Assembly: GCA_003024785.1 (NCBI GenBank)
Contig: PUQB01000249.1
Span: 115,471-179,470, forward strand
DNA: 64,000 bases
Source: Selaginella tamariscina
Taxonomy: Eukaryota; Streptophyta; Lycopodiopsida; Selaginellales; Selaginellaceae
Direction of reading: 5' to 3'
In this document: positions 6,750-51,409 of the stretch, one piece after another
Numbering within the stretch: position 1 is the first letter of the stretch
How the letters are laid out: each line of letters starts with the position of its first letter
The notes under the pieces: model-generated
Databases searched by the model: none
The model's input: the letters and a program-made list of their open reading frames with translations, nothing else
What the model was told of the DNA's origin: nothing
Made by a program: the position numbers and the translations under genes

Positions 6750-6751
6750 AT

Positions 6752-8424: not shown

Positions 8425-8429
8425 CTTGG

Positions 8430-9167
8430 GATAGGTTGCATTCAACTCCCCACACCAATTGGATGGTAAGTCCTGCTATAAGTGGCAACTACATGTGTTT
8501 TTGGGATATACAGTTTACAACCCCCCAGAGAGAATGGTTTTCACAAACGTCTTGAAGAACAAGGATAAATGGTAGCTTAGCTTCTGTTTTAGATGAAAGA
8601 ATATTCTTAATATATATGAATATTAGATTCACAGTGTAATTAATAATATATTTAATAATTTTTAAACATGTTTAAATTACTATTTTAAAAAGTTTACGTT
8701 AAACAAAATATTCTTTATATGTTAATATATTTTATAAATCAATTGTGGAGACTGCATATTATTAAATATCTAATAATTTATAAACATATTAAAATATGGA
8801 TAAAATACGAATATATTTTATGAATCACTGGTGGAAATTGCAATGACATGTTTAAACATGTTCCATTGTTATTATTGAATTAGAACAAACGCTAAACAAT
8901 TTAACATTTTGAACGGTATATCACATACATATGAAATATGTCGCACTACATGTGAAACGTGGAGATTAAAACATGTTTAATTCTTATTTTTCATATTATT
9001 ATTACATTTTTAACACCTAAACAATAAATAATGATCATTTTCAATAGTCACCATGCATAACATGCTGTAACATACCTTTCAATACTTAACATTTTACTGA
9101 TATATTATTTATAGATTTTTATATACATAAACATTATGTAAGAACTTAAACGGTGGAGTTGAAAATA
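8430..9167. other. AT-rich 3' flank of NTPase copy B
   Basis: No gene is seen. The region is conserved with 18,921-19,776 and 38,998-39,729, always directly downstream of an NTPase copy, so it travelled with the gene family as part of the original duplicon. Confidence 0.6.
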
Positions 9168-10854
9168 TTAATCCTCCGCCTCGGGTTCATCGTGGTCAGG
9201 TGGGAACTCAAGCGGCATAGTCACTGTTTTACGGGGTCTCTTCGTCACAGTCTCCTCCTCCTCCTTGTCACAGTCTCCTCCTCCTCCTTGTCCACGTATT
9301 GAATATATCCCAGAGGGATTAAACCCTGCAACACCTTCCTCTCCGAATCAGTTGAATCTCTGAATATGTCTTCACATGTAGTGGCAAGGACCCGCAGCAA
9401 ATCCCTCAGACTCTTATCTTTGATGAAGCCATAATCCAAGCCTTCCGCAATTACACAGTCCGCCTTTACCTCCACACTGTTCATTTTCGAGCCAATTGCA
9501 TAAGTATGGACATTGAATGGTCCACCCATTCCTGGGTATCATCAAGCTTCTCGTGAGCTTTAACTTTGTTGCTGGAATGCTCCCTAAGATTCTTCACCTG
9601 TGCCGCAATACTACCAAAAAGAAAATCACTTCAGTTATGTAAACCAAGAAACCCCTATGTACTAACCTTGAACCAAACTCAGAATCCTCACGAACTCTTT
9701 TATTAGCTGGACTGGATTCTTGTTCTTGCCGCAAAGAACGACACAGAAGGATAATGTCTAGAGCATGTTGGTTCCTTCTGCATATACTTGCAGCACCTCT
9801 CTTGTAGTACTCCACAGATTGCTCGTTTGAAGGCACTGTTGCAGTGGGAAGGAAACAATTGAAGAAAACCGAGCTGTTCAACGGACAACGTTGTCTCTGA
9901 GCTTCTTCACAATCTCTTTGCCGAATAGAGTTTTCAGGTACTCAGAAAGGGTGACAGGCTTGATGTAATTTTCCGACTTCGTGCACTCGTACATGGCCAA
10001 GAGCATGACAAGTCTGGCCACGATCTCCCCACGAACACCTTCTAGCACCAGCCCGTCTACGCAAACCTCGATCAGCTTGGATACAAACTTGCACAAGTAA
10101 GCATCCGAATTGTAGTGAAGTAATGTCGCAGCTACAGCAGCAAGAGCAGGCTCTGCAGCGGAAGCCCGTGTATACCTGAAACAAAGAATAATATTACAAT
10201 ATCTACACACAGTTATAGAAATGTAAATGATGTATATCCCATGTGGTATGTCACACACACACACACACACACCCTTTTCCGGTCCTTAGAGAATTTGACT
10301 ATAGTCCTCATGTGCCTAGCAGCGAGTTGTTTGTGGTAGTGTCCCCCATGCAACGACGTCGAGTCCAATGAGACATGCAAAAACGGCAACCGCAACGTCC
10401 CTAGTCACCCAATCTGGTGTCTCTAAGTCGACATCCTTTCCCAGCAGCTTCTTCATAGCTAGCTCAATGGTTGCATTCACCTGGTTATCTGAGTCAACGC
10501 ATCTCATGTAGGCAGCCCAAAGAGGCCGTCCATATTGCAAAACTTGTTTTGGACTGGTCTCGCCATCTCCAGTTGTGAACAGCACATCGCTTTTACCTAC
10601 CAACCAGATTGGGTCATACAGCTTGTGAGTGCCACTCAATAGTCTCACTCGTGAACTTGGATCGTCCTCCTGAGATGCAGCCAAGTTTGCCACGGTCCTG
10701 TCCGTCCCAAGCGCTACGCTGAAAAAGCTCCTCCTGAAGCTTACAAACTCTGGAGAGGAGAGTTCACCTGCCTCGTCCACGCGAACTTCTTTGATTTTGC
10801 TAGAGAGTCCAGGTGTGGTGCTAAAAAGCCTCCGTAGACTTTTGTGCATTCTTT
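9168..10854 (-). pseudogene. Crinkler/RHS-type P-loop NTPase, copy B (5'-truncated)
   Basis: This is a paralogue of copy A covering only the part after the P-loop. Similarity to copy A stops sharply at 10,854, where LTR sequence of element Q1 begins. The Walker A region is therefore absent. Exon 1 remnant is 10,273-10,854, intron 1 is 10,175-10,272, exon 2 is 9,667-10,174, intron 2 is 9,611-9,666 and exon 3 is 9,168-9,610, ending in an acidic tail before TAA. Relative to A it lacks in-frame pieces around LKYVPSRNC, and the hydrophobic strand before VDEA is changed. A 1-bp insertion near 10,330 and small indels near 9,885 break the frame. A short Glu-rich tandem duplication lies near 9,250-9,290. 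It is inactive as an ATPase. Confidence 0.7.
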
Positions 10855-11006
10855 ATAAGTTAGAATATTCCCCAGGGAGATACGAATATAACCTGGGAGA
10901 GAGATCTATATATAGATCTATGTGGAGAAGCTTTGGGGACACTATGGGGGTGGTTGGGTGGTTTTAAGAGGGTCTCTAGTATTGTACTTGTTGGTGCCTA
11001 ACCAAA

Positions 11007-11018
11007 TGGTATCAAAGC
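11007..11018 (+). promoter_or_regulatory. Primer binding site of Q1
   Basis: TGGTATCAAAGC matches the initiator-Met tRNA site TGGTATCAGAGC at 11 of 12 positions. It lies just after the presumed 5' LTR end. The same site occurs at 41,576-41,587 in Q2. It supports plus orientation and plant-type priming. Confidence 0.75.
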
Positions 11019-11039
11019 TATTTGTGGGTATGGGTGGGA

Positions 11040-13735
11040 AGGAGAGGATAATACCGCCGAGGAATGAACAAATCAAGAGATTGTGCTCGAGCTACACACT
11101 ACAATGAAAAGTTCAAAGAAATTTCAAGAGGATGTAAATGGCAGTTGGATACTATTGAAGATCAATTTGCTCAAGGAATTGTTGGTGGTAAAAGCCGAGT
11201 ATTAGGTCTTCGTGTTTTGCCTTTTTCTAGTAAAATCTACATATGAGGCTATGAGATAGCAAACTTGCTTATTGCACAAGGAGTGACTACCGAGCATGCT
11301 ATGATAGTTATATCAATGGCCTTGAAGAATAAAGTTGCGAGGTGGTGGACACACTGTTAGAGTTTTAACCGGAGGGCTAACACGTGGCAACACGTGGCCG
11401 CCAAGTGGCCTTCTAACGTCAATTCCCTATGTGAGCAACGCTAAGTCTTCCAAGATGACCCTAGAGTCTGACTCAGATGCCTAGTTAAACAGACTTAGAG
11501 TAATACCCTAAGCCCCTAAAATGACCATCCTTCGAACCTTAGAGGATATCCCGAGTAGACTTTAGGTTCCTATCCCAGTAGACCTAGACAGGCTCATGCC
11601 CTAACCCCACAAAGGAGATGTGCCTCACACATGCCCCGTGACAGAGCTAAGGCATCGTCACTTACCCCTTGAAGAATCACCCTCATCCGGGAGTACAACC
11701 CCTTTAGGGCAACAAGGGGTACCCTGAACCACAACTAACCCCTAAGGGTTTGAGTGGCCAAGTCATACCCTAGACCAACGGCTAATACTTAGTGAGGACA
11801 CGAGTGTGCGCCGTAGGCGAACACGAGTGCTTTGCTAAGCAAACTCCCTAAGGCTAGGTTTGGAATAACCCTAAGTACATGACCTTGCAAGTGTTTCACG
11901 AAAAGACTTCTGTTAACAAGCTTAGGTTGTTTAACCCCTGGATTCCAAGGAGAACACTCCCCTAGCCAAGTGTGCCTAAGCACACCTAGTTACGAGACCT
12001 AACCTCCCTTGAGCAAATGCCCAAGGCTTAACACCCTAGTGCGAGCACAAGCATGTTTGTTTGCTAGAGTATCCAACCCCTTGATGACAAGCCCATGACA
12101 CAACCCAAAGGGCGTGCCTCGGGCGTTGTATCGTGTGACGTCTAGCCCAGTGTCACATCTCCATGTGACACTGCCTTCCACGATGTGGGCTATCATGCCA
12201 TAGCCCTTAGATTCAAGAGTTGCACCAAGTGCCACAAACGTGGCTCCTAAATGCCAACTCTAGAACCCTCAGTGAACCCTCAGGAACTAGGCAACGTGAA
12301 CCTAGTCAAACAAGATCCCACGCCCACAGTTGGACAAGGACACGGATGTGCCTTGCTTGGCCGTGAGTGCTACACCTAGCTTGACATGGAGGAGGAGGCT
12401 GGAGACAAGCCTCAACCTTTGCCTCTTAGAATGTGCATTCCGACAAGACCTCCTAGGCATGGATTCGCCAACGTTAAGGGTAAGCTATTCCAAAGGTGGG
12501 ACGTACCCCTGTCATCTGGAAGTTAGGGCGGCACAACAGAGGGTTGTGCCTTGACGACACAAGCTAGAGCTTGCACCGGGAGAAGAGTAACGAGCTCAGT
12601 CATGAACCTAGGAACCCTCACTCCTATATACTATCTTATTTATGTGACAGACCCCCCCCCCGTTTTCCTGTTTACATTAGTGAGCTAGCATGGAATCTCA
12701 TTCCCAGAGGAAATATACTTGGTGAGTTAATTAATGACTCATTAACCCCTAAACCTTAACTTGAGGGGTTTAGGGCATGGAGTTAGGGCAACCCTAGGGC
12801 TAGGTCAACCCTAAGGGTGTTTCTACCCATATCCGACATGCTGAACTCACCGAGAGACCCAAAAACCTAACTGGGACACGGAAAACCAGGGTAAGAGTTT
12901 TTTAGATGGAAGTGCTAACTTCGCCCAGAGTTTCTTGCAAATACCTAATGACACCTGGCCGGACCATCACTAGATATCCAAGTGCACTAAGCGGGCCTGT
13001 TTCTTCTACACCTAGGGCTTATCAACATAGTACAGTAGGTAACAACAATCAACCTTCAAAGTAAAAGGTCGAGTCATAGTAAAAACTATGACACACACAT
13101 TCGAAACCAGTGCTAATTAGCTCACCAGGAGATGATTGCAACTTATCTAAGCTATTTAAGGAATATGTTTCTTAGTTCAATGTCTCTCGTGCAAGACACG
13201 AATTGCGACATTTGGACCTTGGACAACTACATTGAGAAGTTAAGTCAGTTATTGTGATGTGTACTTGACGCGTCTACAGACCAACAGAAGGATTGCTTTA
13301 TAGATGGGTATGAAGTGCTAACTTGCGTAGACATCTTAACACAGTAGTTTAGTTCAAGAGTTTGGAGAAGTTATTTGAGTATGCTCAGTTGTTAAATAAG
13401 GAAGAGAAGGTGCTTAAGAAGAATGAGTGATGTGACAAGAAGTGGGTAGGAGCACTTCTCCAAGTCCTCGTGAGCACCAGGAGTATCGAGGTAACATTAA
13501 TTGTACTAAGCCAACGTCTAAGCTAGTGGCCTCTAGTTCTTATTGCACTATTAACAAGCCTAAGAAGATTGTTAAGGTGTTTAATAATGAACATTGCCAC
13601 ATGTATGGAGATGCTAGACATTGGAAAGCAGATTGTCCAAGGAGGAAAAAGCCCAAGGGCAGAAGTTTTAATGGTGGAGAGGAGCACAAAGGAGACATCT
13701 TTAAACCACGAGGTAATTTTCTACTCGATAGCTAA
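11040..13735 (+). pseudogene. gag of Q1, split by a solo LTR
   Basis: A gag fragment upstream includes MALKNKVARWW just before 11,350 and resumes after the LTR at 13,099. Near 13,595-13,640 there is a zinc-knuckle remnant, CHMYGDARHWKADC, where the second Cys of the CCHC is Tyr. It is followed by a Lys/Arg-rich tail. Several in-frame stops occur. The reading is based on position in the element and the knuckle remnant. Confidence 0.6.
11355..13093 (-). mobile_element. Solo LTR (family Y) nested in gag of Q1
   Basis: On the plus strand it runs from TGTTAGAGTTTTAACC to AAAAACTATGACA (1,739 bp). It is flanked on both sides by CACAC (11,350-11,354 and 13,094-13,098), a 5-bp target duplication. 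The minus orientation follows from the P1 LTR/PBS junction. It contains telomere-like CCCTAA/TTAGGG clusters and a C homopolymer near 12,653. ORFs within it are spurious. Confidence 0.85.
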
Positions 13736-13799
13736 ACTACATGGCACGAGAGGAGCCACACACACACTTGGCTATTGTGATGGAGGGATGACTTGGTGA

Positions 13800-14640
13800 G
13801 CATCCAGTGTGAATTCTTATGAATAATAGGAGTATTGATAACTTTGTGTCAACAAAGTTAGTGCAGGAGTGCGATTTGCCGACGAAGATTGTGCCTTAGT
13901 ACGAGATTGAGGGCTCAACTACTATCACGCAATGTTGGAGTGCTTGTATATAGGAGTTCCCTAGCTGGTGGAGACTTTCCTTCTTGTGGAGCTAGCACAT
14001 GTGGATCTCATCCTTGGGATGAGCTAGTTGGAGCGTGTGGATCCTAAGATCTTCCTCGGTGATATTCTTATTTACAGTAAAAATATGAAGGAGCATGTGG
14101 AGCATTTGCAGAGAGTCCTTTAGTTGTTGGAGAACAAGCTCTATGCAAAGAAGAGCAAATGTGTGTTTGTTCAATGCGAGGTGGCAGTGGTGGAGCAATG
14201 GCTAGTTCCTAGCAACGTACAAGAGTTATGAAGTTTCTTGGGCATGGCTAGTTATTATCATTGGTTTGTTAAAGACTATGCTAAGAAAGCTTCCATATTT
14301 ACTAGGTTGTTGAGGAAAGAAGTTCCTTTTGTATGGAGTGCTTTAGAGGAGAGTAGTTTCCAAGTTTTGAAACAAGTCTTGGTATGTATTGCACATCTTT
14401 TTAAGCCTTACGGGGTATCCTGTGATGCGAGTGGAGCAGCCATTGCAGCTGTACTTATGCAAGAGGGGAGGCCTATTGTTTATGAAAGTCATACTTTAAA
14501 TCCTATAGAGCAACGATACTTGATGTATGAACAAAATCTACTGGCTATTGTTAATGCATTACAAGTTTCAAGGTGTTTACATATCACAAGTCTTTGGTGT
14601 ATCTGTTCACATAGAAAGAGTTAAACTCTTTTACAAGCTT
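13800..14640 (+). pseudogene. RT/RNase H remnant of Q1
   Basis: Around 14,060-14,130 a reading resembling DILIYSKNMKEHVEHL follows the usual catalytic YxDD position of gypsy RT. At 14,238-14,624 the segment MGMASYYHWFVKDYAKKAS continues into SCDASGAAIAAVLMQEGRPI and ESHTLNPIEQRYLMYEQNLLAIV, which is typical RT connection and RNase H sequence. Stops at about 14,229 and elsewhere break it. Confidence 0.8.
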
Positions 14641-14919
14641 GTTGGATGGTTAAGCTCATGGAGTTACGTGAATTTCCCATTGAGCATTGCGTAGGGAAGG
14701 CTAATGTGGTGACAAATGCTTTGTCATGCATAGGAAAGCCACAGTGGTTGGAGAATTCCAAACACAGTTATGTAATGCATTAACAAAGATGGTCAATGAG
14801 TTTAACCATGTAGTTCAGCATGCTGAAGCACAAAACGCTGACGTGGAGGAGCTCAAGGGACAATTGCAGCCATCGTTCTCTTTTTAGGATGTAGTTCTAT
14901 ACTACAATAATTGGGTATA

Positions 14920-15894
14920 TGTCAGAGTTTTTACCTGGTGCCACAAAGGCGGCTTGCCAGGTGCCAACCATGGAAATCCCCTCTTTAAAAACCCCACGAA
15001 ATCTGGTAAAGTAACCCATATTAAGAACCCAACCCTTAGGAACTTAAACCCCCAGCTGACCAAGTCCACAAACGAGGCTCACCTTGTGAATCAGGATACA
15101 CGGACCAGCCGAGCTACAAGTATCGTTCTTAGCTTGGCATGGTTGAGGCAGCCGGAGCAAGGCCTCAACCACTATTCTGTATAACGTGAACTCGGGAAAT
15201 GCCTTTGAGCTTGCGAGCATGTTTTCGGACCAAGGAATTTGACTAACTCCTTGGAAGTGACGTACCCAGTCACAAAGGGGAGATCTTGCCAATGATAAGG
15301 ATAGTTTAATTCAAAGGTGGGACGTACCCCTGTCGTGTGGAAGTTAGGGTGGCACAACAGAGGGTTGAGCCTCGACGACACAAGCTTAGCTTGCACCGAT
15401 AGGAGGTTAACGAGCTCTCTTTTGAACCTAAGAAGCCTCACTACATACACTCTACCTTAATTATGTGACGGATCCCCCCCCTGTTTTCCTAAATGAGTAA
15501 GTGGGTTGGCATGGAAATGCCAGCCCTTAATGAAAATGCATTGCCTAACCTAACCCTAAACCTAACTCCTAGGGGGGTATTAGGGCGTGGGGTTAGGGCA
15601 ACCCTAGGGTTAGGTCAACCCTAGGGGTGTCCCTAACCCTTTTTTAACAAGCTATACTTTTACGGAAAACCTATCTTGGAACGTCAAACCGAGGGAGAGT
15701 TTTCTAAATGGAAGTGCTAGCTTTACCTAAAGTTTCTTACAAATACCTAACGACACCTGACTGAACCATCACTAGATATCCAAGTGCACTATGCGGGCCT
15801 GTTTCTTCTACATTTAGGGTTCGTCACACAACTCGGTAAGTAACAACAATCAAACCCCAAAGTAAAGGGTCGAGTCATAGTAAAAACTATGACA
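14920..15894 (-). mobile_element. Solo LTR (family X) nested in Q1 pol
   Basis: On the plus strand it runs from TGTCAGAGTTTTTACC to AAAAACTATGACA (975 bp), with GTATA duplicated at 14,915-14,919 and 15,895-15,899. Its two ends form a near-perfect 15-bp inverted repeat. It shares one half with family Y LTRs but differs in the other half. The same insertion with the same flank is at 45,445-46,418. Confidence 0.85.
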
Positions 15895-16899
15895 GTATAT
15901 CTGTTCTATATTTCCATCATGATTGCATGAAGACTGGTCACTTTGAGGAGGTAAATGTATGAGTTGATTAAGAAGAGGTTTTATTGGAGGAATATGAAAG
16001 CTGAATATTGCAAGACTTATGACAAGTGTCAGCAAGTAAAGGTACCCATAGAGAAACCAGGTGGGTAATTAGTACCATTGCCTATTCCAATCATGCAGTG
16101 GGGCAGTATCTATATGGACTTTATCATTCATTTACTAAGGCCACATAGGGAGAATGAGCAGGTGTGGGTCATTATGGACAAGTTGACAAAGTTTGTAAGT
16201 TAGTTCCCTTATAACAACATATTCATTAATTAAAAACTTTAATTAATTTTGACATTTTATTACTTATTTGATTAGTATTATCTAAATAATATAAAATATA
16301 ATAAAAAATATTAAAGTAATGAATATGTGGTTTTAGGGAAGAATGTGAATGCCTTAGAACTGGTTACAATGTATTTACAAAATGTATTTCCCATCCATGA
16401 ATTTTCAGATGATATTGTAATTTATCGGGACTTCAAGTTCACTTCTAATTTTTTAAGAGGCCTTTCTTTCTAAGTGCATAGAAGGGAAGCTTAAGTTGTG
16501 TAATGGAGATCATTTCGAGATAGATGGGCAAACAGAGAGGGTAAACCAAGTTCTAAAAAATATGTTGAGGTGTACTACCAACTAGAAGAAAGGCTAGTGG
16601 GATAAGTATATCCATTACTCGAATTTGCCTACAACAACAGCCAACACAATGGGATTGGGATGAGCCTATATTATGCTATGTTTGAACAACATCCCAAGAC
16701 AACTATGCTATGTTTGAACAACATCCAAGACAACTTTTAAGATGGGGTTAGCAAGTAACAACACCCAAGCCAAAATAAGGAAGCTAAAGATTTGAGTGTT
16801 GAGCTTGAGAATATTCAAAGTTTGTGTAAGAAGACTTACAACAGCTCAGAATCAAATTATTAAGTTTGCTAATAAGCACAAAAACTTCTAATAGTTTCA
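15895..16899 (+). pseudogene. Integrase remnant of Q1
   Basis: The reading contains LIKKRFYWRNMKAEYCKTYDKC, which fits the H2C2 zinc-binding region. It then gives WGSIYMDFIIHLLRP and VWVIMDKLTKFV, which fit the start of the integrase core. A later block around 16,540-16,640 resembles the VNQVLKNMLRC helix region. It is interrupted by stops and by the 137-bp insert at 16,204. Confidence 0.7.
16204..16340. mobile_element. MITE-like insert with terminal inverted repeats
   Basis: The ends TTCCCTTATAACAACATATT and the reverse complement of the right end (TTCCCTAAAACCACATATTC) match closely over about 22 bp. They enclose AT-rich DNA without coding capacity. No clear target-site duplication was found, so the exact ends are uncertain. 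The duplicate copy is at 46,728-46,866. Confidence 0.4.
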
Positions 16900-17038
16900 T
16901 GTGGGAGATTACAACCTAAGAGAGAAGGGGATAGATTTATGTGTGCGTGGAGAAGCCTTTGGGGAGGGACTAGAGGCAACTCGGGGTGGTCAAATGGTTC
17001 TGAAAGGGTCTCCTAGTATTGTACGTGTTGGTGCCTTA

Positions 17039-18037
17039 TAGTATTACCACGGTTAATTATAACCCTCGAGACACAAGTTTAAAACTAAATGGTATAGTCT
17101 ATACATTATCATCGAAATACAATAAACAACACATCAACGCTATTAGATCTAGAAGGGAAGAACAAAAATTAACACAAATATTAATAATTGCATAGTAAAT
17201 GCACAAACACTAATTGCATCTATGTATTATTCTATTTTATTTTATTTGATGGAACTATCATGTTTATAAATTAAAATGTCTCATTGGACAAGGCAACAAA
17301 TTAAGAATTAGTACTAATGAGAATATCTTTTGGAAACCAAGGTGTGATTAATAATAAAATACATGGGTTAATTAGGTGCAACCACTAAATTATCTCAAAT
17401 ACAACATAAAATGGTCACACTCCAAAGGCAACCCCATCCCTAACTCTTCCTCCCAATGAATTTTCATTTTGGAGTTCATCACAACAAACAATCATATCCA
17501 AACAGCCATTAGCGAAGCATCCATTTACACTCAAGGTAATTCCACATATGATTCAATACCCATACCCTCTTTTTCTTTATGGTTCAATATTACATGGCTT
17601 TCCATTTGAGAATTGACTCACAACAAAAAAACTCATGTAATTTTACTTGAAGGACATCACCAAACCAAGGTATTATAAGTAGCAACTATAGGGCATCATG
17701 AGCATAGCACACAAATGGATTTACTTATGGTGCCCCAAAACTACACATCCACAATCTTAAAGGGTAGGATTGGTACATGTGGTAGGAAAATGCTCAAGTA
17801 TATAAAGACAAAGGTCGAATTAAGAAGGGAGCTTTAGGAGCTGCACATGTTGTGCAAAAAAGAGAGAAAAATAAGAGGAGTTCATTGTATTTAACTTTTT
17901 TGTTTTGAATATAGTACTCTCCTTGTCCATAACATGTTCCCTTGAGCACCTTACCTATGTCATCCATCTAGACACTGCTAATTGTTTCTCCAAGTTATAG
18001 TAAGTGTAAGACGCTTTTATTTGTATTTAGTGATGGT
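17039..18037. other. Non-coding region after Q1
   Basis: No gene is recognised. A strong TATA-like stretch, TATATAAAG, lies at 17,799-17,807, so part of this could be the U3 of an unrecognised LTR. The sequence is repeated almost identically at 47,565-48,556 and defines the right limit of the large tandem duplication. Confidence 0.5.
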
Positions 18038-18537
18038 GTGTGCTCCAGACTCCTACTTTTTTTGTGAGTTAAACTATTTTCTTATACACACAAGTTGGTG
18101 ACCTCACTGTTATTATGATCACACTTCACTTATTATAGATTATGAGGATTTATTGCTAATATTCCAGATATATTACAACACTAGTAAGTGGCCCATTCGG
18201 CATCCACATAGGACCCCACTTAGCCTATGGCTCCTCATGCTTATGGATTATGGATTCTTGCATTGCAAATTGAATAGAGAGTGTGATAATGTTTCAATAC
18301 TTTCTACCATAGTCTAATTCACTGACCATGTCAGAAAGTAGGCCATAACTCCAAATTTTGTTCTTATTTCTTAAGTAGGGTATATTCAATAGAATAATTA
18401 TGTATTTTATTAAAATATATTATATGTATTTATATTGTATATAAAGTTTTCTTTTACAAAATTAAACATGGATTTTGCATAATGTTAAGCTACAAATTGG
18501 TCGTCAGGGACTCCACATGCCAGATGTGGTGTTACTA
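18038..18537. other. Unique AT-rich spacer
   Basis: I see no gene or repeat here. It has no counterpart in the second unit, where element A begins instead. Confidence 0.5.
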
Positions 18538-19776: not shown

Positions 19777-21416
19777 TTAATCCTCCGACCAATCTTCCTC
19801 CTCGGGTTCATCGTTCATCGTGATCAGGCGGGAACTCAAGCGGTGTAGTCACTGTTTCACCGGGTCTCTTCTTCACAGTCTCCTCCTCCTCGTCCACATG
19901 CTGAATATATCCCAAACCCTGCAACACTTTCCTCTCCGAATCAGTTGAATCTCTGAATATGTCTTCACATGTAGTGGCAAGGACCCGCAGCAAATCCCTC
20001 AGACTCTTATCTTTGATGAAGCCATAATCCAAGCCTTCCGCAATTACACAGTCCGCCTTTACCCCCACACTGTTCATTTTCGAGCCAATTTGCATAAGTA
20101 TGGACATTGAATGGTCCACCCATTCCTGGGTATCATCAAGCTTCTCGTGAGCTTTAACTTTGTTGCTGGAATGCTCCCTAAGATTCTTCACCTGTGCCGC
20201 AATACTACCAAAAAGAAAATCACTTCAGTTATGTAAACCAAGAAACCCCATATGTACTAACCTTGAACCAAGCTCAGAATCCTCACGAACTCTTTTATTA
20301 GCTGGACTGGATTCTTGTTCTTGCCGCAAAGAACGACACGGAAGGATAATGTCTAGAGCATGTTGGTTCCTTCTGCATATACTCGCAGCGCCTCTCTTGT
20401 AGTACTCCACAGATTGCTCGTTTGAAGGCACCGTTGCGGTGGGAAGGAAACAATTGAAGAAAACCGTGCTGTTCAACGGAACAGCGTTGTCTCTGAGCTT
20501 CTTCACAATCTCTTTGCCGAATAGAGTTTTCAGGTACTCAGAAAGGGTGACAGGCTTGATGTAATTTTCCGACTTCGTGCACTCGTGCATGGCCAAGAGC
20601 ATGACAAGTCTGGCCACGATCTCCCCACGAACACCTTCTAGCACCAGCCCGTCTACGCAAACCTCGATCAGCTTGGATACAAACTTGCACAAGTAAGCAT
20701 CCGAATTGTAGTGAAGTAATGTCGCAGCTGCAGCAGCAAGAGCAGGCTCTGCAGTGGAAGCCGTGTATACCTGATCTACACACAGTTATAGAAATGTAAA
20801 TGATGTATATCCCATGTGGTATGTCACACACACACACACACACACACCCTTTTCCGGTCCTTAGAGAATTTGACTATAGTCCTCATGTGCCTAGCAGCGA
20901 GTTGTTGTGGCAGTGTCCCCCATGCAACGACGTCGAGTCCAACGAGACATGCAAAAACGGCAACCGCAACGTCCCTAGTCACCCAATCTGGTGTCTCTAA
21001 GTCGACATCCTTTCCCAGCAGCTTCTTCTTAGCTAGATCAATGGTTGCATTCACCTGGTTATCTGCGTCAACGCATCTCATGTAGGCAGCCCAAAGAGGC
21101 CGTCCATATTGCAAAACTTGTTTTGGACTGGTCTCGCCATCTCCAGTTGTGACCAGCACATCGCTTCTACCTACCAGCCAGATTGGGTCATACAGCTGGT
21201 GAGTGCCACTCAATAGTCTCACTCGTGAACTTGGATCGTCCTCGTAAGATGTGGCCAAGTCTGCCACATACTGTCCATCCCAATCGCTAAGCTGAAAAAG
21301 CATTTTCTCGAAGGTACGTACTTGAGCATCCTCCTGAAGCTTACAAACTCTGGAGACGAGAGTTCACCTGCCTCGTCCACGCAGAGCAGCAGGAACTTCT
21401 CTGCTTTTGCTAGAGA

Positions 21417-22796: not shown

Positions 22797-22806
22797 CGTC
22801 CTCAGG
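22797..22806. repeat. Left target-site duplication of the Mutator-like element
   Basis: CGTCCTCAGG, identical to 31,795-31,804. The uninterrupted site is visible in copy A at about 2,167-2,176, followed by CTGCTT exactly as after the right copy. Ten bp fits the 8-11 bp duplications of Mutator-like elements. Confidence 0.95.
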
Positions 22807-22900
22807 GGGCACGGCGAAATTCGAGTGCAGGTCAACGAGCTTGACCTAGATTCGTAAATATTCTTGAATATTCGTTGTTCCGTACGAATTCCGTCTAGAT
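22807..22900. repeat. Left imperfect terminal inverted repeat
   Basis: Aligns without gaps over about 34 bp to the reverse complement of 31,700-31,794 in the TCGAG, GCAG and CGAGC blocks. GAATATTCGTT then recurs about 60 bp in. Similarity is patchy rather than perfect, as in many old Mutator-like elements. Confidence 0.6.
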
Positions 22901-23156
22901 ATTCTCAAATATTTTGTACGGAAATTTTTCGTATTGCCAAGTGTATACACCTTCCAAAATTTTAAGAATATTCTAGAATATTCTAGTGCGGCGGCCGCAT
23001 ACAAAATATGGTAGTATATTTGTTGTATTTAAAGAAATATACGTTAAATTACTTAAAAATATGTAAGCATAAAATTACCATTAAAATTTATATTGAAAAT
23101 TATAAGTTTGAAATAAAAATATAAAACCGAAGCTGTTTGAAAACAAACCAAACACA

Positions 23157-26100
23157 CTAAATAGATGGTGGAGGATGGAGGTTCCTTGGTAGCATCAATA
23201 AAGAACTTAGTTCACGGGGTGCAAGTGTACGACGTTGCAAATGCTTGACAACTCGAGGATCAGCTCCCAGTACACGCTTGTAAACAAAATACATATGTTT
23301 GCAAGGCACCCACTGACGACCATTGCAGAACTCCGAGCATGAACAAGATGGTGCGCTGCAAATGACAACCCAAGCAGATGTATGGTCGTTGTCACATACT
23401 CTGAAGCGAATGCATGTTGGAGGATCAACCACGTCAACTTCTGCGACATATGCTCCCAACGTCAAACATGCTTCAAAACTTACCTGTTGTTTCTTAGACA
23501 TCCCTAAAGGTGTTCTTGTTGCACGACCACTTGCAGGAACAGGAGGTCCACGAAATTGTGCAGGGGGTGTTGAAAATCCAGTGACTCCAACAGGAACTGA
23601 AGGAACATGAGGTGTTGAAAAACCTGGCACTCCTGCATGAGCTGAAGGAAGCCCAGCTAGCATAAAACCTGATCTTGCCAGATCATTGATCTCCATTGCT
23701 ATCAGCTTCGTGCCCACTTGAACTTTCCAAACCGAGGTAGAAGCTGGCGGAGAAACAATAGTTGGTCTTGGATGTCTGCTGCAAAGCATGTTTGTTGGAC
23801 AAAAATACATCATTTGTGAGCGAAAGCATTCTTCACCAGTTTCTTTGTCATTGTATCTGATCCTTCCAAAAAAACAAGGAGCAGCCACTCGATTACCACT
23901 AGGACTGATCTTTTTGTCACAAGCACTCCACTGACCTCCTGAAGAGGGAAAGCCTGCCAGACATTTCACAGAACTTCTTTCACCACATCTTCTAATCGCC
24001 CATTGTCCAGGTGTAACATCTTGTTCTTCAACCAGAACATATTCTTCATGTTCTTCTGCAAGTTGAAAATCCAATCGTCGCTTCCGTCTACACTGTGTTG
24101 GAATAACCTGTTCACTATAGAAGATGTCCGGTCGGTGGGATCGTTCAGCCTCTGACCCCATATTTCTTTGCACAGTGCGATGTTCAACATTCGTGGCAGC
24201 CACAAAAGCAGTATCCTGCATGCTTGATGGAGCAACATCTTCAACTAAGTCGATGATAACCTTTGCTGTAGGTGTTGTTGAGTTAGCATTTGACATTCTT
24301 CTCTCGAACCTTGCTGAGAGCTCCTCTGAAGTCGGCCCGGAACCACTATACCTTCCATCTCTAAAAGCCTTCACAAGAGCACATTGTCGCACTGATTCAG
24401 TCAGGTCGTGGATTGTAGCTTGGTACAATGAAATGTATTTTGAATCTCTAGCCCTCCTCCATCTTCCGTGAACAGACTCCGACTGGTTTGTCATGGGCAC
24501 AACCCTTGCAGCATTCTCCGGCATGCTTTCAAGAACAACATTTGAAATATGATTCTTCTGTCTTTCCCACCATGAAAACCACGTCTGCATAACTCCAACA
24601 TCCTTCACATTTTCATTCCAAAAGCGGAAAAGATTATTTTCAATTTCTTCACGATCAGTTGTTGATGTGGCTGTTGGCCATGATCTCAAAAGTTGAAGAT
24701 GTTGTTGTTGATGTTCAAGAGGGACCCACTTCCTTGTCACACGTTGTATGGCTTGTTCATAGTGAAAGATACAGCTCCGTTCACGTCCAGGAATTTCTTG
24801 GCCATTAAAGAACACATTCCTAATTGCTTGCCAGATCGCTCCTGCTTCATCGGACATAAACCCAGCGAACTGCACATTGTAGATTCCCTTCTCGGAACAG
24901 ACATCCAACATAGCACGAAAAAACTTCTCCACAGCTCCAGCCGTTTGTCTCTTCATGTCACCATAAGCAATGGTGGATAATCGGCGCACACTATAAAATA
25001 ATCAAAGAGTTAAGCAAACAACAAAAAGATAACATCTTACTTTGGGTCGTAAACATGCAATGCCAGAGTGATCCACTTATCAACAACACGGTGTGTGTGA
25101 TCAAGTAGAACCCAACTCTTCTGCAAAGGGCCAAGAGGAGGTTGGCACATCCTTACATAATCGATTCCAGAACCTGGCCCTGAAACCGTCATCTTAAAAA
25201 CTAATGCCTGGTCGTCTGAACCACGGAAATTCATCCCAGGATAGTGAATCACGTGGATGAATGGGATAGACAACCTTCGTTTCAGCTCCAATAATCCATC
25301 AATATTCTCTGGCATTTCAGCAGCAGTTCTCTTTGCGGACGCTACCCATTGACGAACTCTGCATCAAAGGTATTATCAAAGAATGCTCAGCACAAAGTAA
25401 AACTCTAATTGTACCTTCGATTGTTTGATAATGGTTGCAAATGATCCATGAGCTTATCCCAACTTCCAGGCTCAGAATTATCTAATAGGAAACCAAAGAT
25501 AGCATCTTTACATGCTGCCATTTCGATGACTCTTGGACTAGCTCTGGGAGTTCTTTCTGTTGCATTCTGGACCGCCATATGCATTTCTTCTGTTCGATGC
25601 AGAAACACCATCACCCACTGGATGTGAATGTTTTCCCTGGTGGATAAACAATCTAGTCTTGGTTATGTCGTCTGGGAAAACGCAAAACGCCACAGCATGA
25701 CAAACTTCAAGGCACAATGGATTTTCTTTACAGAAAAAACATGTCAATCCTTTTGCCAGTTTGTCGATTGAAGGTGGGGAAACAATACATCCTTTCCATT
25801 TAGTGCAGTTCGGAAATCCTGCCTTAGAAGCAGGGCAGTCCGGGTTGATACAGCAAAGGCTCCCAACACATTTGCTCCTGGACACCCTCGCTTGAAAATT
25901 CCAGTTGCTGGTCGTTCCTGCTGTCCAGGTATGTCCATCCTCTTTCCGATTCATTCCTTTGTATTTGTATTCGGAAGGAGGGAGCTCAAAAATGACATCC
26001 CCATCATACGCAATAGGCAATTCATTTGTATGAATGATCGTGGAACCCTCGATAAGAATTCTTCCCTTTTTGCAGGTATTAGAAGTGAAAAGGTCCTTCA

Positions 26101-26391
26101 ACGTTGAGTATTCAGAGTCAGAAGCAACGACAAGCTTAAACAATGGTCCTTCATCCGGTAACAAAACATATCCTGGATTATCCTTCCCCCAGCATCTTGG
26201 TCCTCGTTTATTTCGATCTCTAAAGCAGATTGCCCATGAAGAAGTTTAAAAAGACGAACACTTTGCCAATCAAAAATGCCAAAGAACGTTCTAATCTGAT
26301 TAGTAAGAATGATTCCAACACCATCTATCACAGGAACATCGTGATCCAAATTGCCGTAAACAATCCTGGCCATTTTGCAAGCAGTTACCAC
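23157..26391 (-). CDS. MULE transposase (zinc region, DDE core, SWIM finger)
   Basis: The likely start is at 26,391 or the next Met (MARIVYGN). A frame change lies near 26,180. At about 25,540-25,860 there is a Cys/His-rich region (CCINPDCPASKAGF, two further Cys, then GKHSHP) resembling the WRKY/GCM1-type DNA-binding zinc domain of many MULE transposases. Introns are 25,359-25,414 (56 bp) and 24,991-25,040 (50 bp). The core has WVLLDHTH (first Asp) before intron 2. After it come FAGFMSDEAGA (second Asp) and ERSCIFHYEQAI (C..H, then Glu), fitting the MULE DDE pattern. A 610-aa open frame runs from 24,989 to 23,157. It includes an unassigned Cys-rich stretch and a C-terminal SWIM finger CSCSEF..VPCKHMYFV. 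All catalytic positions appear kept, but the N-terminal frame change may disable it. Confidence 0.8.
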
Positions 26392-27105
26392 AAACGTGAC
26401 AGAAAAACAACAGCATTACTAATCATCTTTTGGTAAATATCGGATATTACCATTTCAAAAATTCACAATCATGACTCAACGTGGGCGAATATTTAATTCA
26501 AGGAAACGTATAGATCTTAGATGCTAATATAGTATAGCACTTCACGTAGAGATAGAGCAATCTTTATTGTCTTTTAAATAAATGTGTGTCTAATCTACAT
26601 TCATCTGACATATTTATTTATGACTTGTTTATATTCTGTTAATTTATTTAATAATTATTATTATTTGATAGTATTTTATAAATGTGTACTATTGTAGACA
26701 TTATAAATACATATTTTTACACGAATATTTATTTAATTATATAATAATATGTTTTTTTAACATACAAATTTTACTTAAATATGTGTTTGTATTTGTATCC
26801 TTTTATATATGTTATTTATCGCAAGTATTGTATATACTGTTGCATGGTTTGATTAAACACAGTTTTATGGTTAAGGTCAAAGGGTTAAGGTTAGTTTTAG
26901 GGTAAAGGTTTAGGGATTTCTTCTCCATTCTCCATTGCCGAGAGGGCACTTTTGTTTTTTTTCGCGGCGCTCTTGTTCTCCATTTGCCGACAGAGGCTAG
27001 TGTGAACGTCACGGCGACATGGCTATACGTAAAATCTTATGTATATTCAACATCAATTTCTGTACATGTATGTGCAAATTCAGTAGGATTTCTTTATTCA
27101 CCAAT

Positions 27106-27106
<1 letters not shown>

Positions 27107-27143
<37 letters not shown>

Positions 27144-27184
27144 GCCGATTTCGGCAGGAATTTTGTGTGTGTGTGTGTGTGTGT
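27107..27184. repeat. CA array - hairpin - TG array
   Basis: About 34 bp of CA repeat, then CCTGCCGA-TT-TCGGCAGG (27,141-27,158, perfect 8-bp stem), AATTTT and about 20 bp of TG repeat. The whole block can fold into one long hairpin, and the alternating arrays are Z-DNA-prone. Confidence 0.8.
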
Positions 27185-27365
27185 TCGCACACACACACAA
27201 ATAACATTTATACACACAAGCAACATTACACATACACACACAAGCAACATCATACACATACACAAACAAGCAACATTACACATACACACACAAGCAACAT
27301 CATACACATACACACACAAGCAACATGATACACATACACACACAAGTAACATTTTACACACACGT
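27185..27365. repeat. Minisatellite of about 24-27 bp units
   Basis: At least six imperfect repeats share an ACACACAAGCAACAT core, with ATTACACATAC or CATACACATAC between them. They look expanded from the adjacent CA array. Related short units recur near 27,690-27,760. Confidence 0.75.
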
Positions 27366-27459
27366 ATCACATTATGATATTATATATACAACATTAGACT
27401 TGTATACATGTGTGTGTGTGTGTGTGTGTTTATATATATAAATACATACTTAAAAAGAC

Positions 27460-27469
27460 TTGTTTACAT

Positions 27470-27514
<45 letters not shown>

Positions 27515-27580
27515 TATATATATATATATTATATATATATTATATTATACTTATATATATATATAAGTATATGAATCTAA
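27460..27580. repeat. AT dinucleotide array
   Basis: About 120 bp of nearly pure TA repeats with minor interruptions, ending in a short palindrome around ACTTATATATATATATAAGT. Prone to cruciform formation and length errors. Confidence 0.85.
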
Positions 27581-27972
27581 GACTTGTATATATGAGATGA
27601 CGCTTTTCGTTTGTATATACATACATGTGAATAGATATGAATATACCCATATTCAGAATCTCTCTCTCACACACACACATCACAAAACACACAAAACAAC
27701 ATTGCACACATACACACACAAGTAACATTATACAGTGAGCACACACACAAACAACATTACACATGTACAAATATGTATGTGTGTGCGTGCGTGTCCATAT
27801 ATATTGATAGGCATACATATACAGTAAATGTGTGTCCATAAATTAGAACAACTCACCACACACTCTTATTAGTTGTTGTAATTGCAGAATGAGGCAAGGA
27901 CAAGTAAGAGACTGCGAGATAAATACAAGACTTTGATAATTCAGGAACATACGTCAAGAAGCTCTTGTAGAT

Positions 27973-30900
27973 ATGGCTCCAAAACCTCGTGGCAAGAAAG
28001 GAGGCCGAGGAGGTGCCAAGCAACAACTGCACGCGAGAGATGATGCTGACGAACACTGAACTGTGGATAGTTGCAAGTCATTGATGAACATGCTATGGTA
28101 AGTGAATGGATGCCTAAGATAGGGAGATCGCAGGAAGCTCTGCAGAACACGGTAATGTAGATGAAGTACCGGACATTGATCTTGGCAGTAAAGCGTTCAA
28201 CAAAAGAGGAAACTGGATGCTCCTGAGGATGTTGCCGAATCATATGCAATTCCGGAACGGCTGACACTTGAGGCTCCATCCAAGCTTCTTCGGGATCTTG
28301 TTATTCGGTATGACACGGATATTGACACATCGCTACAAGGACGAGACCACTACGTTCCAGTTGAGCTTGGCGAGCCTCCGCATATCCCGGTTCACAGGTT
28401 GCTCCACACCAACGTTTGAGGAATGTCACTAAGGATGGCGTGAAAGACCTTGTTGATGGATTAGAGCTGAAGGATTTTACCAGGAGACGTCGATGTTCAC
28501 CTTATCTTTCGAACCACAGCTAAGTGCAGACGAACGCCGAAGCTGGAATGAGTCAGAAGCACAGGTAGATAGAGAGTTTGAAGCGATTTGCATAAGCCAG
28601 CATTTTCTGCGTGGTACCGATTTTTAAAGATGCAAAGTTTCTGGTGTGGGATGGGAATCATCGTCGGGTTGCTTTGAACACTCTGCTTGCTGAAGAGCCA
28701 GGCTTGAAATGGACTTTGCGTGTACGTGCAACACTCATAGCATCCACAGCACAGGAGGAGAAGAGACTGATCGCTGCTTGCAATCGGTTGAATGAGTAAG
28801 TGACTTGTTTGTTTCATTATTTAAATACTAAACAAATGTTGTTTTGTTTTGCAGAGCAACTGCTCGTGTGGTTCCTACAACGATCATTCACACCTTGCAG
28901 TTCTTACGGAATTATTGTCTGAAGTTGCAGATCTTTCTATCGATCATGTTCTTCGCGGGATGCCAGAGGAAGATAGAAAAGCTGTGGAAGTGTGGAGATC
29001 GAACAGAAAAGAAGACGTTTGGTACGAGTATCCAAAGACGACATTGGTGAAGATTTTTTGGGAGGTAATCTTTTCTTCTTCTTTTGATCGTTTTTTGATT
29101 TTCGGTTTGTTTTGCAGAATCAACTAAAGCGACAAATCGCTACAAAACTTGCGAACAAGAAACCAAACCAGATAGAATCTCAAATCCTCTCAGCGTTTAC
29201 AAGACATTCACCGTTTGAATGAACAAATTCCTCACCATTGCTGATCCGGCGGTCGCAAAGATTGGTTCAAGGCGATCACAGATATCACTATCAAACCATC
29301 GACGAAGCAAATAACCTGGAGAAGCTTCAAATGCTCGCGAAGTCCCAGCTTCCTTCCAACGTCAAGGTTGATATCCTTGGAAGCTTGTGCACATTCAAGA
29401 ACGTGGCGTTCTTGAGAAGCTGGTGAACATGACGGAGAAAGACAAGAAGGAAGGTGTCACCGGCTGGCCTGACAAGGACTTCATCAAGTTTTTGCACATC
29501 TTTACTTACTGGTTCCAGGTAATTTAATATTTATATTTTTCATTTTTATTCGTTTTATCGTGCCAGGTCGGGAGGCAGCTAAAGAGCTTTTGGTCGAGCA
29601 TGAGCAGTAGTTAGAGTTTATGGCATGGTATACGAAGATGCACAATGAAATTAAGTTGGATATGTACCAGAACATGCTCGAGAACAAGGAGTTCGGTGCG
29701 ACAATTCCACCTCTCGACTATTTGAGCTGGAAAAATCTGCAAAAAGAATGGCATTCAGGCAAGTCTTTTTTTTGTTTCTTTACAGATTTTTATCTATTTT
29801 TCAGGTTTTTAAAATGGAAAAACGATGCACTCCCTGAAGATTTCAAAGAGTGGATGGATGTTACCAAGGATTCTAGCATGTGGAGCCGGTTGTTACGTGA
29901 TATCAGTGATTACGAAGTGGAACACTGTCCTTTCTGGCTGGATTTCCTTCCTGGTGACTGTCCCGAATGGGAGATGGCCAGCTATAAGATACACAAGGAT
30001 GATCGGCGAGAGCTATTATGGAAGAACGACAGTGCAAGGAAGCTCCATGTGAAGATGGATATCAGGTATGCTAGATCGGCGAGCAAGGTCAGCAAGGGAC
30101 AGCTTCTTCTTCAGCCCCATCCTTCATCTCGGCTGGATTGGAAGAAGATGATATGTTGAGGATGGTGATGCCTGAGAAGGGAAATGGAAGCTGGGAAATC
30201 ATTCATGCAGATTCAGAGAACCTTGCAGTCCAGTACTTCAAAGCCGGAAGGCCTTTTCCGTCAGGATTGAAGGAGCTTGAGGATTGGATCGTGAGTCACA
30301 AGTCAAGTTGGACTATTCATGTGTTTGGTGCGAAGCCTCCACCAAAATGCATCCAGGGAGCTGTTGATCTCGTTGTCATCGACCCGCCTACCGGATGCGT
30401 TGCTGAGGCAGGCGGGATGGTGGATCAATACACGAAGTTCTCGGATGCTTTGCTGAAGAACTTGGTGAACCTTGCTTTCGGGATATTAGACAGAGCTGGC
30501 CATGTGGTAGTGTTTGTGCTACCGGATGATGTTCTAGCTTTGAAGAACACTGCAGAAACTTGCAAGCTAAAGTTTCTGCAGATGAGTTATGTGCACACGA
30601 CAAAGTCATGGGGATACCGTTTCTCTAGAAAGGTAATTCTTCTTTTTGAGAATGTCATTTTTTAATGTTTTTTTTTCAGGAAAGCATCATTGCCATGTGT
30701 ATTTTTGGTTCCCCCTACTCTAAGGTTGCCAAGAACAAGGAGATCTTGGACACTCGCTACACTCTTCTTTTGATGAGCCAGAAGATTTCCAGCTCCCATG
30801 GTATAATGTTGTTTGTTATTTCTCATGTTCTAATATTGTAACTTTCAGGATTTCAATTGGCCCGAAATCTCCCAAGTTGTTTGCGATGCTAGTGGAGAAG

Positions 30901-31497
30901 CTCACAAAGCCTGGTGGAACTGTCGTGGATCTAACAGTGGGAACCGGTGCTAGTATTCTTGCAGCTTTTCACACAGGGAGACATGGTTATGGAATCGACA
31001 TCAACAAGGATCTGGTTTTAGCAGCCAGAGATGTCTTCAGGAAGGTCATTCCAAGTGTTACATGAAGGTGGTGGGGATGATCAAGTTGTTTCCATGATTA
31101 CTCCTTTTGATGAGTGGAAGAGGGCCATGGAAACAGAAGCACAGGATTTGCCTTTGGCTAGCGACAACGATGGAGACCAGGATCCGCCTTCTCGAAACGA
31201 CAGGATGTTGTTACAGAAGTCCGTGGAGCACAACGACGAGTCATCAGATGAGTCAGCAGAAGAGAGATCATACGAGTCATCAGATGATGAGTGAGATTTG
31301 TTTTTCATTTCTTTGGTTTTAAACTTTAATATGTTTTCAGTATTGTTCTACCAGACTACGCTAATCAGATGGCAAAGAAAATGGTTGAAGAGTTCGAAGT
31401 TTACGAAGACAGATTTTGGAGAAACGTTCACGACACCGTAACAATGCATTCATTAACGACGAGGCACTGGCTGGTGGAAACGAGTCTTCATGATTGA
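27973..31497 (+). CDS. ParB-like domain fused to a beta-order DNA methyltransferase
   Basis: A plausible start at 27,973 gives a basic, AT-hook-like N-terminus (PKPRGKKGGRGG); the exon order to about 28,200 is unclear. A coding stretch at 28,207-28,420 ends in IPVHRLLHTN. A frame change leads to NVTKDGVKDLVDGL, and VWDGNHRRVAL lies at about 28,650. These fit a ParB N-terminal domain with a GxHRxxA-like box. Introns are 28,796-28,854, 29,065-29,117, 29,519-29,566, 30,633-30,679, 30,801-30,848 and 31,291-31,340 (47-59 bp). The catalytic motif DLVVIDPPTG (about 30,370) precedes the AdoMet-binding VVDLTVGTGASILAA (about 30,915). This is the order of beta-class N6-adenine or N4-cytosine methyltransferases. 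An acidic ESSDESAEE tail and a last exon ending at 31,497 follow. Frame changes near 28,415, 28,900, 30,080 and 31,055 suggest decay or sequence error. The exact base methylated cannot be read. Confidence 0.65.
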
Positions 31498-31699
31498 GTT
31501 ATGTTTTATTGTAATTTTTATTTAGTTTGATGCGGTATTTATATAAAAATATAATTATAGTTATAAATATAAATAAAAAAAAAAAATAAATATAAATATA
31601 AATATATAAATATATATGTCAGATTAACCCCCAAATTTGTGAAACTTACACATTACCATGCCGCCATGATTGCCCGCCCGCGCCGCACCGAAATATTCT
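31498..31699. other. AT-rich 3' region of the methyltransferase gene
   Basis: AT-rich with an A-run near 31,575; a likely 3' UTR and polyadenylation area. No other feature is seen before the right terminal repeat. Confidence 0.5.
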
Positions 31700-31794
31700 T
31701 TTATACAAAAACGAATATTCTATACGGAATGGAATATTCCGGTATGACGGAAATCCGTACGCTCGGCAAACTGCGCTCGAGGAAATGTCGGATC
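31700..31794. repeat. Right imperfect terminal inverted repeat
   Basis: Reverse-complement partner of 22,807-22,900, sharing the CGAG..GCAG, CGAGC and GAATATTCGTT blocks. It is followed at 31,795-31,804 by the second copy of CGTCCTCAGG. Confidence 0.6.
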
Positions 31795-31845
31795 CGTCCT
31801 CAGGCTGCTTCCGCTCCCAAGCTCAAAACGGTGAGAAGACGCCAT

Positions 31846-39729: not shown

Positions 39730-41417
39730 TTAATCCTCCGCCTCGGGTTCATCGTGGTCAGGTGGGAACTCAAGCGGCATAGTCACTGTTTTACGGGGTC
39801 TCTTCGTCACAGTTCCTCCTCCTCCTTGTCACAGTCTCCTCCTCCTCCTTGTCCACGTATTGAATATATCCCAGAGGGATTAAACCCTGCAACACCTTCC
39901 TCTCCGAATCAGTTGAATCTCTGAATATGTCTTCACATGTAGTGGCAAGGACCCGCAGCAAATCCCTCAGACTCTTATCTTTGATGAAGCCATAATCCAA
40001 GCCTTCCGCAATTACACAGTCCGCCTTTACCTCCACACTGTTCATTTTCGAGCCAACTTGCATAAGTATGGACATTGAATGGTCCACCCATTCCTGGGTA
40101 TCATCAAGCTTCTCGTGAGCTTTAACTTTGTTGCTGGAATGCTCCCTAAGATTCTTCACCTGTGCCGCAAATACTACCAAAAGAAAATCACTTCAGTTAT
40201 GTAAACCAAGAAACCCCTATGTACTAACCTTGAACCAAACTCAGAATCCTCACGAACTCTTTTATTAGCTGGACTGGATTCTTGTTCTTGCCGCAAAGAA
40301 CGAACAGAAGGATAATGTCTAGAGCATGTTGGTTCCTTCTGCATATACTTGCAGCACCTCTCTTGTAGTACTCCACAGATTGCTCGTTTGAAGGCACTGT
40401 TGCAGTGGGAAGGAAACAATTGAAGAAAACCGAGCTGTTCAACGGAACAGCGTTGTCTCTGAGCTTCTTCACAATCTCTTTGCCGAATAGAGTTTTCAGG
40501 TACTCAGAAAGGGTGACAGGCTTGATGTAATTTTCCGACTTCGTGCACTCGTACATGGCCAAGAGCATGACAAGTCTGGCCACGATCTCCCCACGAACAC
40601 CTTCTAGCACCAGCCCGTCTACGCAAACCTCGATCAGCTTGGATACAAACTTGCACAAGTAAGCATCCGAATTGTAGTGAAGTAATGTCGCAGCTACAGC
40701 AGCAAGAGCAGGCTCTGCAGCGAAGCCGTGTATACCTGAAACAAAGAATAATATTACAATATCTACACACAGTTATAGAAATGTAAATGATGTATATCCC
40801 ATGTGGTATGTCACACACACACACACACAACACCACCCTTTTCCGGTCCTTAGAGAATTTGACTATAGTCCTCATGTGCCTAGCAGCGAGTTGTTGTGGT
40901 AGTGTCCCCCATGCAACGACGTCGAGTCCAATGAGACATGCAAAAACGGCAACCGCAACGTCCCTAGTCACCCAATCTGGTGTCTCTAAGTCGACATCCT
41001 TTCCCAGCAGCTTCTTCATAGCTAGCTCAATGGTTGCATTCACCTGGTTATCTGAGTCAACGCATCTCATGTAGGCAGCCCAAAGAGGCCGTCCATATTG
41101 CAAAACTTGTTTTGGACTGGTCTCGCCATCTCCAGTTGTGAACAGCACATCGCTTTTACCTACCAACCAGATTGGGTCATACAGCTTGTGAGTGCCACTC
41201 AATAGTCTCACTCGTGAACTTGGATCGTCCTCCTGAGATGCAGCCAAGTTTGCCACGGTCCTGTCCGTCCCAAGCGCTACGCTGAAAAAGCTCCTCCTGA
41301 AGCTTACAAACTCTGGAGAGGAGAGTTCACCTGCCTCGTCCACGCGAACTTCTTTGATTTTGCTAGAGAGTCCAGGTGTGGTGCTAAAAAGCCTCCGTAG
41401 ACTTTTGTGCATTCTTT
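39730..41417 (-). pseudogene. Crinkler/RHS-type P-loop NTPase, copy D (5'-truncated)
   Basis: Duplicate of copy B. Exon 1 remnant is 40,837-41,417, intron 1 is 40,736-40,836, exon 2 is 40,229-40,735, intron 2 is 40,174-40,228 (55 bp) and exon 3 is 39,730-40,173. Unlike B, the frame across the GTLPQQLAARHMRTIV segment is intact. However, 1-bp changes near 40,170, 40,303 and 40,723 break other parts. It lacks the P-loop because element Q2 starts at 41,418. An active ATPase is not possible. Confidence 0.7.
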
Positions 41418-49081: not shown

Positions 49082-49083
49082 GT

Positions 49084-51407: not shown

Positions 51408-51409
51408 AT

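Follow-up and report, generated by a model that had tools for sequence, protein, structure and literature searches.

A Mutator-like transposon family of Selaginella tamariscina with a predicted ParB-methyltransferase gene

The brown alga Ectocarpus harbors Sola1-1_Ec32, a 21.5-kb DNA transposon of the Sola1 superfamily in which a ParB-like and an N4/N6 methyltransferase domain are joined in one protein of 1104 amino acids (aa), whose gene runs on the other strand from that of the transposase; in the excerpt of the paper used here, the authors propose a role in self-modification for this gene and cite similar proteins in transposons of red and green algae, the red alga Bostrychia among them (PMC12477816). 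Here, we describe a gene of this kind in an 8,988-bp Mutator-like element (positions 22807..31794, no strand assigned) within a 64,000-nucleotide stretch of the Selaginella tamariscina genome (GenBank assembly GCA_003024785.1, contig PUQB01000249.1; hereafter the window). Compared by description only, the two elements agree in that both domains lie in one protein (1063 aa here), on the opposite strand and inside a DNA transposon, the ParB-like part being the weak point of the likeness. They differ in superfamily, host and length (about 9 kb here), and what the Selaginella element has beyond the description in the excerpt is an array of palindromes at its ends and copies whose frames are open. 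The red and green algal proteins are, as far as the citing passage goes, accessory proteins of the same kind.

Mutator-like elements (MULEs) include the VANDALs. VANDAL21 (Hi) of Arabidopsis encodes VANC, an anti-silencing protein that brings about a loss of DNA methylation; the excerpt used does not call it a methylase. VANC illustrates how a protein made by an element can work via arrayed short motifs, and its motif YAGTATTAY lies in non-coding parts of the element, and also in introns and intergenic parts (PMC5735166). By this account, VANDAL21 resembles the present element in encoding an accessory protein and in having a short motif arrayed outside its coding parts (PMC5735166), a likeness drawn from descriptions, and differs from it in that VANC is linked to methylation loss, whereas the protein described here has a methylase fold. 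Retrotransposons with incorporated cytosine methyltransferases are reported from dinoflagellates and charophytes (PMC5890265); these also carry a DNA methyltransferase, but of the C5-cytosine type, whereas the present gene is of the N6/N4 type and sits in a DNA transposon. The first-pass annotation, made from the letters of the window, had called a methyltransferase gene unusual cargo for a MULE. Among the open-licence papers searched, none was found to describe a ParB-methyltransferase in a Mutator-like element; in transposons at large, the gene is not without precedent, since the excerpt cited above already reports ParB-methyltransferases there (PMC12477816). What is new here is the Mutator-class version, the transposon-borne gene type being known. 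The family to which the element belongs is probably autonomous and recently amplified.

The insertion is exactly delimited. The 10-bp sequence CGTCCTCAGG flanks it on the left (22797..22806) and on the right (31795..31804; no strand assigned to either) and stands uninterrupted at about 2167-2176 in an adjacent duplicate, copy A, at whose empty site the blastn pieces 1364-2176/21998-22806 and 2154-2751/31782-32372 join. The 8,988-bp insertion with a perfect 10-bp duplication and a visible empty site, as first annotated, is real, and the two divergent genes described in it were found as well: a transposase gene that runs leftward and, running rightward, one that encodes a DNA methylase domain.

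On the minus strand, the transposase gene was read by eye as three parts: (i) an N-terminal exon region (25408..26415) with a Cys/His motif like WRKY/GCM1 fingers that includes HSHP, (ii) a middle exon (25040..25363) with DHTH, which holds the candidate first catalytic Asp, and (iii) a main exon (23157..24989), an open reading frame (ORF) of 610 aa that contains SDEAGAIWQAI...CIFH and a C-terminal SWIM-like motif, CSC...CKH, of the pattern CxC...CxH. A 208-codon ORF at 25538-26164 also lies within this gene. Its naming as a WRKY/GCM1-SWIM MULE transposase is tentative: the motifs read by eye and the anatomy suggest a Mutator-like element, and a Pfam scan of the transposase gave no MULE, SWIM or WRKY match. 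With Pfam silent, we apply the Mutator label because of the motifs read by eye, the length of the target duplication and the terminal inverted repeats. The 10-bp duplication of the window copy lies within the 8-11 bp (typically 9) of MULEs, and the inverted repeats are present in degenerate form; the score is 49 for the window ends and averages 30 after shuffling, with 1 of 500 shuffles as high as the original, and the ends of copy L029 score 75 (not shuffled).

The window's own assembly (300.7 Mb in 1,391 contigs) holds further insertions with the same left terminus. Searches with the left 300 bp of the element gave 128 first-look candidates; among the 40 of these that were scored, the window matched at 100% and the other 39 at 91-92%. 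With a 561-bp transposase piece, 126 first-look candidates were obtained, and the 40 that were scored, window included, were all 100% identical. We fetched 20 of the 39 non-window left-end places, picked by left-end match, and 20 of the 40 scored transposase places, none shared with the former; both samples favor close copies, and all copies come from one family. The start reads GGGCACGGCGAAATTCGAG in 19 of the 20 fetched left-end loci and is one base off in L024, with different flanking DNA each time. The usual family ends are GGGGCACGG...AATGTCAAACCC; at its right tip, the window copy reads ...AATGTCGGATC, the last 5 bp being atypical.

Target duplications in these 20 loci were determined by a script that shifts the boundaries and keeps the longest match it meets; values of 11-12 bp are therefore upper values. 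Duplications of 8-12 bp were obtained in 12 loci, one of 6 bp in L015 and none in seven. Among these seven, L012 runs into a contig end, an interruption affects L019 and L021 is rearranged; L011 has a 9-bp duplication by eye, and L014, L018 and L020 have none by script or eye. When the element is taken to start with GGGG, the duplication is often 9 bp long.

Pairwise substitutions among 17 colinear copies (136 pairs) have a median of 0.43% and range from 0.011% to 3.5%, which looks like a recent burst of amplification, with the caveat that short-read polishing can inflate the likeness among repeats. Both large stretches of the transposase (614 and 337 codons) are open in 6 of the 19 spanning copies (L013, L016, L023, L026, L027 and L028), and 5 of the 19 (L016, L018, L020, L025 and L027) have open methyltransferase stretches no shorter than 322, 314 and 212 codons. 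A family of pseudogenes was rejected on the strength of these open stretches, though the window copy is broken. Damage was also seen in other copies: in the transposase part, L014 is short of about 370 bp and L024 carries a small inversion. Relative to the main subfamily, the window copy is a mosaic, with 13 mismatches at the left end and 37 in the ParB exon, and nearly identical sequence in the main transposase (2 mismatches) and main methylase exon (1 mismatch), which suggests either that polishing was uneven or that subfamilies have undergone gene conversion with each other.

All 40 copies that could be judged, each at a different genomic place, hold at least a part of the methyltransferase gene. 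These comprise the window, 19 copies chosen by the left end and 20 chosen by the transposase; L012, at its contig end, was left unjudged. Seventeen of the 19 left-end copies are colinear and complete, with the four tested gene parts in order and 97-100% of each covered. In L019, the methyltransferase gene is interrupted by a nested long terminal repeat (LTR) element and lacks about 300 bp (positions 5748-6047 of the L027 element); in L021, 31% of the ParB exon is in place and the methylase part is inverted. For the transposase-selected copies, the gene was found in 20 of 20, in 19 from a 1.4-kb slice at the expected position and in one from a longer stretch. The slice match of L039 spans 927 aligned columns at 88.7%, and in L044 the gene lies beyond a 6-kb insertion that shifts it. 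Neither a transposase that regularly lacks the methyltransferase nor a methyltransferase at a fixed host locus, the two observations that the first-pass annotation had named as pointing to a one-off capture, was seen among the judged copies, and we reject a one-off capture because all of them hold the gene or part of it. Nested insertions were seen in two copies: in one (L019/L031/L032), an LTR element with repeats of about 860 bp and, by eye, a Ty3-type integrase lies inside the methyltransferase gene, and in the other (L053/L044/L054), a 6-kb element with repeats of about 383 bp lies in the intergenic microsatellite region. This region (26984-27800 in the window copy) differs strongly from one copy to the next and has a high density of (CA)n/(TG)n/(AT)n microsatellites.

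The ParB-methyltransferase gene occupies 27973..31503 on the plus strand of the window, where its frames are broken. Exon 1 (27973..28795, plus strand) encodes a putative ParB-like domain with a VWDGNHRR motif, and the exons at 29805..31290 (plus strand) encode the N6/N4 methyltransferase domain, with motif IV (DPPT) at 30381-30392 and motif I at about 30937-30954. Against L027, the window gene has 27 gap runs across the coding region, introns included. Since local duplicates are rich in 1-bp indels, assembly error and real decay are inseparable here: within 10.9 kb of such duplicates, 71 one-base gaps stand beside 80 mismatches, and near-equal numbers in places are pointing to uncorrected long-read indels. 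The intron model was derived from L027, the only copy spliced in full, and is a sequence-based prediction with seven introns, each 47-59 bp long; six have GT-AG borders and the other has GC-AG. Its spliced product is a stop-free protein of 1063 aa, which ends at 1013 aa if the last intron is retained. The seven spliceosomal introns suggest long residence in eukaryotes. Bacterial or phage contamination was rejected, given these introns and the copies on many contigs of the assembly. Rfam at the gathering threshold gave nothing.

In the L027 protein, PF01555 matches residues 868-921 (E 3.5e-8; score 34.1 bits, cut-off 26.7; profile positions 165-218 of 221), and it also matches a piece of the window (E 7.6e-7). 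The phrog_67 DNA methyltransferase profile aligns to residues 609-992 (E 7.5e-11); this match and that of phrog_498 (732-933) each cover both motif IV and motif I. Motif IV (DPPT) stands ahead of motif I (GTGAS), the order of beta-class methyltransferases. The designation as a ParB-domain DNA methyltransferase is borne out by Pfam for the methylase domain; for the ParB-like part, there is a weak match to DndB.

Between the window and L027 genes there are 29 synonymous changes on 657 sites and 19 nonsynonymous ones on 2,379, counted without positions within six columns of a gap. The corresponding ratio of nonsynonymous to synonymous divergence (dN/dS) is about 0.18 (p 7e-9; p 1.2e-5 or 9e-5 at a synonymous fraction of 0.30 or 0.33) and points to purifying selection on the predicted gene. 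Two decayed copies, L039 and L046, together have 37 synonymous and 75 nonsynonymous changes relative to L027 (Fisher p 0.0012 against the counts of the window). Over the gene, other copies gave synonymous/nonsynonymous counts against L027 of 7/5 (L011), 1/0 (L014), 1/1 (L015), 0/0 (L018), 7/12 (L022), 0/5 (L023), 1/1 (L024) and 2/9 (L026), and 12/22 over part of it in L019; transposase counts of L024 (30 synonymous, 89 nonsynonymous) were set aside as a presumed misalignment across its inversion. In our reading of this pattern, the gene would have been under selection in the lineage that preceded the burst, with mostly neutral decay after insertion. The changes of the window gene relative to L027 have no C>T/G>A bias (26 versus 32 opposite, 11 transversions); the left end of the window copy has 10 versus 4, L039 has 52 versus 15 (52 of 79 substitutions) and L046 has 28 versus 12 (28 of 44). 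If the host methylates cytosines in silenced copies, a C-to-T/G-to-A excess like that of the older copies L039 and L046 would be expected.

The ends of the element share an array of a short palindrome, GAATATTC. It occurs 14 times in the whole window, five of these within the element and all five at its two ends: at 22866, 22966 and 22976 in the left terminal region (22807..23000, plus strand) and at 31713 and 31732 in the right terminal region (31680..31794, minus strand), both regions holding degenerate inverted repeats. The count is exactly eight in 16 of the 17 colinear copies and seven in L026, with every palindrome at most 200 bp from an end. Six copies looked at in detail have five in the left region, three in the right and none in the interior. 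The spacings in L029 (10, 42, 68 and 10 bp on the left, 21 and 19 bp on the right) suggest a putative protein array.

Taken from sequence, the likeliest mechanism appears to be self-marking. We give somewhat less than an even chance to the proposal that the element encodes its own DNA-marking accessory, with the ParB-like part serving the ends and the methylase part the mark, and that the benefit is anti-silencing or licensing of transposition. The accessory protein would thereby serve the element itself: the ParB-like domain would bind the GAATATTC palindromes near both ends, and the beta-class domain would methylate adenine, or N4 of cytosine, at these palindromes. Such a mark might keep the element ends and promoters from host silencing or, alternatively, tell the transposase which ends are ready for cutting. 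A more specific version, in which the transposon writes N6-methyladenine or N4-methylcytosine on its eight-palindrome end array as a self-recognition code, likened to a restriction-modification system, for escape from silencing or as a transposition licence, we consider possible and doubtful.

Several points weigh against self-marking. In beta-class enzymes, an aromatic residue usually comes after DPP, the catalytic pattern being (D/N/S)PP(Y/F/W); the window, L027 and L046 all have DPPT, and because of this the enzyme may be altered or lack activity. The DGNHRR region matches DndB with E 0.0014 and 0.0054, both below the cut-off, a weak assignment as ParB-like. No homologue was found in the protein, viral-contig, phage and plasmid collections searched. 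The selection test is one informative sequence pair, of which the window copy is itself broken and mosaic, and in the decayed copies used as control, which span the 3' part of the gene, dN/dS is 0.50 (L039) and 0.48 (L046), counted without the gap filter and near 0.5, not 1. The palindromes, finally, may be sites of the transposase.

Among the rival readings, the strongest takes the ParB-methyltransferase to be catalytically dead and to act as a DNA-binding anti-silencing or transposition cofactor like VANC, its methylase fold just recognizing DNA. This would account for the DPPT motif, for a motif I that reads DLTVGTGAS against DCFMGSGTT in M.MboIIA, for a gene that is conserved and apparently under selection, and for motif arrays in non-coding terminal regions that resemble VANC21 target arrays. 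We hold it to be rather unlikely, as motif I retains its GxG core and motif IV its DPP, in the right order, and PF01555 scores above its cut-off. M.MboIIA (PDB 1g60) aligns locally to the DPP and GxG regions in the same order; the match is weak (E 0.62 for the whole, −2.3 bits and not significant for the DPP region alone), and the 260-aa chain differs from the 1063-aa protein in having DPPY instead of DPPT.

A second rival, which we judge unlikely, assigns the GAATATTC palindromes to the transposase as subterminal binding sites and lets the methyltransferase act elsewhere, on host DNA or the silencing machinery, or in the replication timing of transposition. DNA transposons usually have subterminal repeats to which the transposase binds, and the palindromes are strictly terminal; nothing direct stands against this reading, and one site could serve both proteins. 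Improbable is the view of the gene as a passenger captured once by the ancestor of the burst and hitch-hiking without benefit to the element, which would explain the co-occurrence in copies that all stem from one recent family, but is countered by a dN/dS of about 0.18 in the window lineage versus L027 against about 0.5 in decayed copies, by seven spliceosomal introns in the model that suggest long eukaryotic residence, and by the same gene type in an unrelated algal transposon, as the excerpt reports (PMC12477816).

The surroundings of the element are repetitive. A large segmental duplication relates window positions 1-18041 to 20072-48559 in pieces of about 94-98% identity, and a large imperfect palindrome relates 48675-52972, inverted, to 55303-59989 in pieces of 84-96% identity with retrotransposon-like ORFs. 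By eye, the Ty3-type elements resemble those of plants, and the introns are short. The insertion site is the copy-B counterpart of a 285-codon ORF (window 1361-2218, minus strand) with a P-loop-like GWGKSRL motif. This ORF has no Pfam match; we presume a resemblance to Crinkler-like/RHS-type multigene proteins. The ORF family neighboring it has copies at 774-1409, 20824-21303 and 40504-41412.

Self-marking by an N6/N4-type enzyme of a eukaryotic DNA transposon is at the stage of a proposal in the literature found, as excerpted (PMC12477816). Since ParB-methyltransferases occur in both Mutator-like and Sola1 elements, such accessory genes were perhaps recruited more than once. The Selaginella family is good material for this question, with more than 100 candidate places, several open-frame copies, near-identical sequence, an apparently selected gene and a terminal array. 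If the proposal is true, a bacterial-type self-mark in a land plant would amount to a system of DNA modification that the enzymes known from plants do not cover.

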